A DNA stretch of 64,000 nucleotides from NCBI RefSeq assembly GCF_030286045.1, contig NZ_CP127390.1, forward strand, positions 3,179,482 to 3,243,481. Reading direction: 5' to 3'. Origin of the DNA: Propionimicrobium sp. PCR01-08-3. Its GTDB lineage: Bacteria; Actinomycetota; Actinomycetes; Propionibacteriales; Propionibacteriaceae. How positions within the stretch are numbered: the stretch's first letter is position 1; every line of letters begins with the position of its first letter. A program made the position numbers and the translations under genes. The notes beneath the pieces were generated by a model that was not told the origin of the DNA, did no database searches, and saw only the letters and a list, made by a program, of their open reading frames with translations. Shown one piece after another: positions 2,792 to 60,244 of this stretch.

Positions 2792-3652
2792 TCACGACCT
2801 GACGGCGGCCTCCAATGCTTGCCGCGCGTCACACATCGCGGGCCCATACCAGAACAGCGATCGTCCGGGCACCAGCACGGTGTGCGTCTCCGGAAATGCG
2901 TCAGGCCCGTCGTACGGCCCGAAGGCGTAAGGCTCATCGGGCAGCAGGACTGCGTCCACCCCACCCGAGGTGTGCAGCACCTCCGCCACATCGGCATGTG
3001 GGTAACGCTCACCGAAGTCGGCGCCGGCGCTCGTCCAGCCCAGCCTGCTGACAAGGTCGGACGCATAGGTCCCCGCACCCACCCAGATCCATGGATCGCG
3101 CCAGATCGGGATCGCCACCCGCAGACCGGAGCCATTGATGGTGGCAGGAGAGCTCAGCTGCGTCGATGGACGAGCGGTAGGCGCATTGAACCGTCCCAGA
3201 TTTGATGGAGGGAAAGCCGGGCCTTCTGAATCGATTCCCGACACATCCCACACCTTGCGCGCCGTTCGAAGCCACGCAGGCGTCTCCTTCAGGCCGAGCG
3301 CCTCGGTGAAAAACCGTTCCAGGCTGGCCACGGCCTCGTCCACACTGTCGATCTTGGTCACCCAGACGTCGACGCCGGAGGCCCGCAGCCGTTCGACGTC
3401 GAGTTTGCGGTTCTCCTCTTCGTTCACAACCACGAGGTCTGGTTCAAGGGCGCGGATCTTGGCAAGGTCTGGATTCTTCGTGCCGCGCACCCGCTCGACC
3501 TGCAGGCCCGGCGGCCGGACGCACCAGTCGGTCGCTCCCACCAGGACGCCCGGCACGCTCAGCGCGATGGCCTCGGTCAGCGACGGGACCAGGGACACGA
3601 CTCTGCGTGGTGGATACGACAGGTCCACCGGTGCGCCGAGGTCATCGAACAC
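2792..3652 (-). CDS. Helical-backbone metal-receptor protein (BtuF-like), no signal peptide
   Basis: A 286-aa protein resembling the periplasmic-binding fold of BtuF/FhuD-type receptors. It has the N-terminal block RRVVSLVPSLTEAIA, the middle segment KIRALEPDLVVVNEEENR and the C-terminal segment GGVDAVLLPDEPYAF. There is no signal peptide or lipobox, and no permease or ATPase genes flank it, so it is probably not part of an uptake transporter. Stand-alone relatives of this type are common in actinomycetes and their function is unknown. The GTG start has an AAGGAGC ribosome-binding site 5 nt ahead. No cobalamin riboswitch is visible upstream. Confidence 0.7.
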   Translation of the reverse strand: MFDDLGAPVDLSYPPRRVVSLVPSLTEAIALSVPGVLVGATDWCVRPPGLQVERVRGTKNPDLAKIRALEPDLVVVNEEENRKLDVERLRASGVDVWVTKIDSVDEAVASLERFFTEALGLKETPAWLRTARKVWDVSGIDSEGPAFPPSNLGRFNAPTARPSTQLSSPATINGSGLRVAIPIWRDPWIWVGAGTYASDLVSRLGWTSAGADFGERYPHADVAEVLHTSGGVDAVLLPDEPYAFGPYDGPDAFPETHTVLVPGRSLFWYGPAMCDARQALEAAVRS

Positions 3653-12015: not shown

Positions 12016-12196
12016 CGAGGAAGGCCGAGAGAAGAACGAGCTTGCTCGTTCTTCCGAGGCCAACGAAGCGGTCGAGAAACTTCGAATACCGCGAGGAAGG
12101 CTGAGAGGAAATCAGGCTTGCTTGTTTTCCCGAAGCTAACGAAGCGGTCGAGACGCAACGCGTCGAACACCGCGGTGTGATGTCGCAGGACGTTGG
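12016..12196. repeat. Duplicated hairpin units after tRNA-Ser
   Basis: Two related units begin GCGAGGAAGGCYGAGAG at 12015 and 12091 (76-bp period), and both end near AACGAAGCGGTCGAGA. Unit 1 holds the perfect hairpin AAGAACGAGC-TT-GCTCGTTCTT. Unit 2 holds a GGAAA…TTTTCC hairpin. The cores resemble the palindromic elements at 35799, 45666 and 45810. Confidence 0.6.
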
Positions 12197-12233
12197 AATA
12201 GGGTGAACCCTCGGTTAGTGGGTTCACCCTATT
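12197..12233 (+). terminator. Terminator of the tRNA-Ser transcript
   Basis: A perfect 14-bp stem (12197–12210 with 12220–12233) with a 9-nt loop is followed by TGTGTTGTT. If it ends the tRNA-Ser transcript, the hairpin units lie inside the primary RNA. No gene is seen from 12234 to 12493. Confidence 0.8.
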
Positions 12234-33725: not shown

Positions 33726-33783
33726 GCGCCCGAAATCTGCTCCCGCGCCCGAGATACCTGGCGCGTCGTTCGATTTCGGGCGC
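33726..33783. repeat. 58-nt nested palindrome, copy A
   Basis: The outer arms GCGCCCGAAATC/GATTTCGGGCGC are perfect at 12 bp. Seven-nt internal loops (TGCTCCC and GTCGTTC) separate them from an inner stem GCGCC/GGCGC with loop CGAGATACCT. A second copy at 60187–60244 has the inner stem-loop exactly reverse-complemented. Confidence 0.8.
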
Positions 33784-55822: not shown

Positions 55823-55934
55823 GACATTCAGTCTGCCACCTGCGTCGGGGCCCGCCTGAGTCCGGATTGATCGTCAACTGTTTTGACGGCTTCGACCGTT
55901 TGCACCGATTCGTCGCCGAGCAAGACGGTCGTCG

Positions 55935-55983
55935 TTATTGTGAGTGATTTTGCGTGCTGGGCGGGCAAAACCACTCACGATAA
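55935..55983. promoter_or_regulatory. 19-bp hairpin/operator-like palindrome upstream of the IclR gene
   Basis: TTATTGTGAGTGATTTTGC (55935–55953) pairs with 55965–55983 with only two non-Watson–Crick positions and an 11-nt loop. It lies 112 nt upstream of the IclR start in the 437-bp divergent region. Confidence 0.5.
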
Positions 55984-60186: not shown

Positions 60187-60244
60187 GCGCCCGGAATCTG
60201 CTCGCGCGCCAGGTATCTCGGGCGCATCTTCCGATTTCGGGCGC
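60187..60244. repeat. 58-nt nested palindrome, copy B (inner stem-loop inverted)
   Basis: The outer arms GCGCCCGGAATC/GATTTCGGGCGC have one wobble position. The internal loops TGCTCGC and ATCTTCC keep the orientation of copy A, and the inner stem GCGCC/GGCGC carries loop AGGTATCTCG. The 20-nt inner stem-loop is the exact reverse complement of that in copy A at 33726–33783. Confidence 0.8.

Follow-up and report, generated by a model that had tools for sequence, protein, structure and literature searches.

Lineage-specific palindromes bracket a gene for an AbiEi- and Vsr-like predicted nuclease in Actinomycetota and are dispersed through its host genomes

In Actinomycetota, a gene for a predicted nuclease is bracketed by two copies of a long palindrome, the sequence of which is specific to the lineage and to the nuclease, and the same palindromes are dispersed genome-wide. 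The complete unit of ~1.1–1.4 kb runs from a palindrome of ~58–80 bp through one gene to another copy of that palindrome, in most cases inverted. The window analyzed here, a 64,000-nt stretch of the genome of Propionimicrobium sp. PCR01-08-3 (G000 below), carries two 58-nt palindromes that are probably solitary copies of a palindrome family belonging with such a gene. Their parts are as follows.

33726..33783, + strand: palindromic element copy 1, 58 nt, intergenic, between two tandem + strand genes
33726..33737, + strand: left outer arm of copy 1, GCGCCCGAAATC
33738..33744, + strand: left 7-nt segment of copy 1, TGCTCCC, the commonest type in the family (GGGAGCA in the right-hand reading)
33745..33764, + strand: core of copy 1, GCGCC-CGAGATACCT-GGCGC
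33765..33771, + strand: right 7-nt segment of copy 1, GTCGTTC
33772..33783, + strand: right outer arm of copy 1, GATTTCGGGCGC
60187..60244, − strand: palindromic element copy 2, 58 nt, intergenic, in the promoter region of divergent genes, with its core opposite to that of copy 1
60187..60198, + strand: left outer arm of copy 2, GCGCCCGGAATC
60199..60205, + strand: left 7-nt segment of copy 2, TGCTCGC
60206..60225, − strand: core of copy 2, reading GCGCC-AGGTATCTCG-GGCGC on the + strand, the exact reverse complement of the copy 1 core
60226..60232, + strand: right 7-nt segment of copy 2, ATCTTCC
60233..60244, + strand: right outer arm of copy 2, GATTTCGGGCGC

The sequence reads as the initial annotation had described it: each copy is exactly 58 nt long, and the two 20-nt cores are inverted relative to each other. 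The accompanying claim that the outer parts share one orientation holds for the left 7-mers, which agree (TGCTCCC and TGCTCGC); the right 7-mers match each other weakly, and because the 12-nt arms are mutually complementary, and hence uninformative, the claim depends solely on the left 7-mer. Within the window, the pattern GCGCCCGRAATC-N34-GATTTCGGGCGC, which allows for the gap, has just two matches, at copies 1 and 2 (0.00 matches expected from shuffles). Folded as single-stranded DNA, both copies form a stem, a 7 × 7 internal loop, a second stem, and a 10-nt loop (z = −4.9 and −2.7, respectively). Two unrelated strong inverted repeats in the window, AATAGGGTGAACCC...GGGTTCACCCTATT at about 12196–12232 and TTATTGTGAGTG... 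at about 55934–55982, are probably terminators.

BLAST searches with each window copy retrieved ~26–28 dispersed copies from this 3.29 Mb Propionibacteriaceae genome. The 25 full copies that we aligned are all exactly 58 nt long. Outer arms and core are conserved and both 7-nt segments are variable, and each element holds four similar half-sites (GCGCCCGAnAT), two at positions 1 and 20 and an inverted pair ending at positions 39 and 58. Every one of the 27 copies scored for context, using gene calls from a codon-usage heuristic, is intergenic (19 tandem, 6 convergent, and 2 divergent). Both the 58-nt length and the half-site spacing are near-fixed across the host genus and its closest relatives, and related palindrome families are present in other species. 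A scan of the genome collection with the arms returned two loci, one of them in a Propionibacterium MAG that is a near relative; the other, in Celeribacter, proved to be an unrelated palindrome. Base-pair covariation of the family within the genome showed no excess over shuffles, and no Rfam covariance model matched at gathering level in eight loci.

Two observations concern other palindromes. At a convergent-gene site that holds a 58-mer in G005 and G007, both G000 and G004 have the palindrome GATTGTGTAGAT...ATCTACACAATC with an inner GGCGCC (L162 about 455–675, that is G000:C1:3172355–3172575, and L164 in G004), possibly a second family at the same site. REPIN-like inverted doublets, made of solitary palindromes 40–75 bp apart, were seen at G269:C1:77659–77848, G293:C320:16746–16974, and G446:C3:23790–23981.

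Three pairs of palindromes lying close together, in G000, G006, and G010, enclose ~1.1 kb with homologous reading frames, and the gene between two closely spaced palindromes is homologous in four lineages. Its product joins a winged-helix/DNA-binding region resembling AbiEi to a predicted Vsr-like PD-(D/E)XK nuclease at the C terminus. A profile search for the enclosed gene added further members, whose flanks hold, on both sides, palindromes of the same geometry with a sequence specific to the gene. G006 encodes two nucleases; a separate palindrome type goes with each (GCGCG and GCGGA), and solitary copies of both types are present. The nuclease of G010 is bracketed by a GCGCCAGAG-type palindrome, and the brackets in G004 keep the 58-nt geometry with half-sites GCTACCGA instead. 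Counting some distant homologs, 13 of 18 Propionibacteriaceae loci are bracketed. The window's own genome has such a gene as well:

3081837..3082734 of contig 1 of G000, ~97 kb to the left of the window: bracketed nuclease gene with one frameshift

This gene is split into two reading frames at G000:C1:3082093–3082100 (L113), and its palindrome family may thus now be without a working enzyme of its own. In G020 (genus g14), two to three matches to the palindromes were found but no nuclease homolog was detectable; its nuclease partner is either lost or distant. G010 also has a more distant AbiEi/DUF559-like gene; the palindrome that tightly brackets it, CTGTCGAGTTGATGC..., is an unrelated one and recurs in a third copy ~1.1 kb downstream (L125:1111–1163, 2114–2190, and 3271–3321).

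With a profile built from eight members, homologs were detected in 158 of 247 genomes of Actinomycetes. We analyzed 30 Actinomycetes loci with 1.5-kb flanks, with segments from the same loci as the control. A repeat common to the upstream and downstream 400 bp was found at 28 of the 30 loci (control: 1/27). These bracket repeats are mostly inverted and 41–101 bp long depending on scoring, mostly 70–90 bp. Palindromes scoring at least 15 numbered 18 per 23.6 kb of near flank, 1 per 63.6 kb of far flank, and 0 per 26 kb of coding sequence. An independent and more distant set of loci, drawn phylum-wide, gave 20/29 bracketed loci (control: 0/26). Pooling both sets, 48 of 59 loci, from many families of the phylum, are bracketed. 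The sequence of the bracket palindrome is lineage-specific, with complete turnover between lineages, and across loci the relatedness of the nucleases correlates weakly with the similarity of the palindromes (Mantel 0.16, 59/2000 permutations). Among 28 loci, 12 carry an outer tag, TGAYCAYGT, at each end of the bracket in inverted orientation (control: 0). Ten bracket palindromes compared with ten other genomes were dispersed, with at least 17–75 matches per genome (rough figures that count both strands), and among the matches listed in these ten genomes most were to the palindrome of the genome itself or of a congener.

The AlphaFold2 model of the protein has a mean pLDDT of 88.9 and a pTM of 0.85. 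Its best structural match in Foldseek is the antitoxin AbiEi (6y8q, E = 8e-5), followed, with weak E-values, by Vsr (1cw0) and the catalytic domain of I-Bth0305I (3r3p; TM of target 0.65). Consistent with the first match, PADLOC AbiEi profiles match all eight members, and Pfam AbiEi_4 matches four of the eight, below cut-off in the case shown. A sequence search for a solved structure of the nuclease found none. For the assignment to the Vsr-like PD-(D/E)XK class, the fold match is weak and the invariant acidic residues are present: E, D, and E of the motifs ESxGES, R-x-DF, and GE-x-DG are invariant in 36 aligned homologous domains. We infer that the bracketed protein is an active nuclease.

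We next consider the movement of the palindromes. G005 and G007 are ~98% identical; all 11 palindrome pairs compared are common to both, with no insertion polymorphism, and the palindromes diverge like their flanks (2.35% vs 2.04%), which rules out hypervariability of the elements between these two genomes. No target-site duplication was evident outside the repeats; inverted repeats are present, and the repeat ends are uncertain. The shared, flank-like palindromes and the lack of evident duplications speak against recent movement. Between species the occupancy of sites differs: the site of copy 1 is without the element in the aligned G005 and G007 sequences, and both of the G005 palindrome sites tested are without the element in G000. 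In a search of orthologous loci for clean empty sites, the divergence of the intergenic regions was too great for exact insertion points or duplications to be read. As a separate observation, the palindrome to the left of the nuclease gene has lost 31 internal nt in G005 (L111, G005:C1:281565–281622 region) compared with G007 (L112:38–95), a hairpin-type deletion.

Nine copies are clearly asymmetric. Oriented by their cores, they have GGGAGCA/TGCTCCC on the left in three cases and on the right in six; the flip is therefore a family-wide mosaic that took more than one event, and the window pair is one example of a free combination of core and arms. The switching orientation proposed in the initial annotation, along with an undescribed mobile palindrome of REP/MITE type, thus survives in part: the elements are REP-like, dispersed, and related to families in other species, and the switching is standing variation between loci. 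Orthologous copies in the near-identical G005 and G007 gave no sign of ongoing inversion, although most cores there are symmetric and hence unable to show one. As for the cause, the annotation had suggested template switching inside a cruciform, or an enzyme. Inversion of the core inside paired arms fits the data, and a history in which the ancestral hairpin was symmetric and one of its 7-mers was replaced independently fits equally well. Many G005 and G007 copies are perfect palindromes of 58–72 nt. One orthologous copy differs between the two genomes by two changes, both within a single 7-mer (TGAAGAT to TGAGGTT), and the TGAGGTT type occurs also in other copies; this single case favors block replacement.

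Our preferred interpretation, which we consider rather likely, is a REPtron-like selfish or domesticated system that operates without an HUH transposase. Weighing against it are the palindromes shared by G005 and G007, the lack of evident target-site duplications, the frameshift in the G000 nuclease, the palindrome matches of G020 without a nuclease match, the weak Mantel correlation, and covariation that stays at the level of shuffles. Around the observed brackets, mobilization might proceed as follows. The nuclease would recognize its own palindrome, either as a cruciform or hairpin or via the repeated half-sites, and would cut it or cut at it. Repair of the break, or a transposition-like joining, could then place single palindromes at new intergenic sites. 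The core flip may arise as a side effect when a nested inverted repeat is processed, in that pairing of the arms would allow template switching or inter-copy conversion to swap the core or one 7-mer independently.

AbiEi binds inverted repeats at its own promoter, and the AbiEi-like domain could likewise be a repressor, the brackets regulating the gene and the dispersed copies serving as regulatory or decoy sites, without any mobilization by the nuclease. The AbiEi-like N-terminal part, the copy that precedes the gene at all bracketed loci, and the resemblance of the four half-sites per palindrome to repeated binding sites are all in keeping with this idea. An operator, however, has no need of the second, downstream and usually inverted copy or of invariant nuclease residues; most dispersed copies are found on the 3′ side of genes (25 of 27 in a tandem or convergent setting), where operators are unlikely to be, and bracket sequences turn over completely between lineages. 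We therefore regard pure regulation as unlikely. Homing is still less probable in our estimation. Here the nuclease would cut empty solitary palindromes, and repair would copy in the palindrome-gene-palindrome cassette, making spread of the gene the main activity. The protein model does resemble the homing endonuclease I-Bth0305I, and copying into a target would leave the cassette bordered by two target copies, but homing by itself makes no solitary copies at new sites, and the closest-related cassettes are single in each genome whereas solitary palindromes are many. Known EDxHD homing enzymes are found in introns or inteins, or are free-standing; we know of none with bracketing, dispersed palindromes.

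That the elements are ordinary terminators or mRNA-stabilizing hairpins, passively amplified, is highly improbable. Although they are stable hairpins, intergenic and mostly downstream of genes, their length and half-site spacing barely vary in the genus and its closest relatives, copy 2 lies in a divergent promoter region, and the bracket statistics, with one gene family enclosed at 48/59 loci, disfavor this account. We give scarcely any credence to a classical REP/RAYT system or an IS-derived MITE, despite an overall look of dispersed extragenic palindromes beside one enzyme gene. The RAYT/Y1 transposase anticipated by the initial annotation was not the partner: the Y1_Tnp profile (PF01797) matched in 0 of 8 genomes (5 of 14 control genomes were positive), and the palindrome-linked enzyme belongs to the PD-(D/E)XK/Vsr-like nucleases. 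Target-site duplications are not evident, and the GTAG (or CGTC) end tag of REPs is absent from the copies, which end in GCGC with variable flanks. Lacking both the HUH transposase in these eight genomes and the GTAG tag, the system is therefore not a member of the REP/RAYT group.

REPtrons are coding sequences bordered by palindromes, with an enzyme gene in few copies and dispersed solitary palindromes (PMC8266576, PMC3733652). The REPtron-like reading that we prefer draws on these likenesses to REP/REPtron systems (RAYT, TnpA-REP; PMC8266576, PMC3733652, PMC3116915): short, dispersed, extragenic palindromes of lineage-specific sequence, a few-copy enzyme gene bordered by palindromes that are often inverted, and an outer tag motif at some of the loci. 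By contrast, the enzyme here is AbiEi-like and PD-(D/E)XK/Vsr-like rather than an HUH Y1 transposase, and the palindromes are nested and longer (58–80 bp vs 20–40 bp), those of Propionibacteriaceae carrying four half-sites; a GTAG tag is absent, and the hosts are Actinomycetota. In TIRtrons, TIRYT genes are flanked by palindromic TIRs (PMC3733652), some self-complementary and some dispersed, but TIRYTs are HUH tyrosine transposases and the present enzyme is not. The N-terminal half matches AbiEi of the AbiE toxin-antitoxin system (PDB 6y8q) by fold and PADLOC profiles, yet the protein here is fused to a nuclease domain and bracketed as a single gene. With Vsr and the EDxHD homing endonucleases (I-Bth0305I, PDB 3r3p) the C-terminal domain shares a Vsr-like PD-(D/E)XK fold, at weak E-values. 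On these grounds, the best reading is that the system is REP/RAYT-like at the level of anatomy and would have converged with REP/RAYT on a different nuclease.

The open-access literature yielded no account linking AbiEi/DUF559/Vsr-type nucleases to bracketing palindromes; an earlier description elsewhere is possible. The novelty lies in the enzyme, whose superfamily is an unrelated one; for the arrangement, a parallel is already known. Few bacterial repeats are as common as REP sequences, the enzyme family linked to them is the HUH RAYTs, and the route of their spread is still open. The chances seem to us about even that a class of selfish or domesticated elements is widespread in the Actinomycetota, each with an AbiEi-Vsr-type nuclease that spreads the long palindrome by which it is itself bracketed, as a second, independently evolved system of REPtron type based on PD-(D/E)XK chemistry rather than HUH single-strand transposition. 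If an enzyme unrelated to RAYTs were a second partner of dispersed palindromes throughout a phylum, palindrome dispersal would have evolved more than once. Many genes at present labeled 'hypothetical' or 'AbiEi-family antitoxin' would also acquire a function, in a tractable system of one ~310 aa protein and one ~70 bp palindrome, and actinobacterial genomes would gain a recognized class of dispersed repeats.
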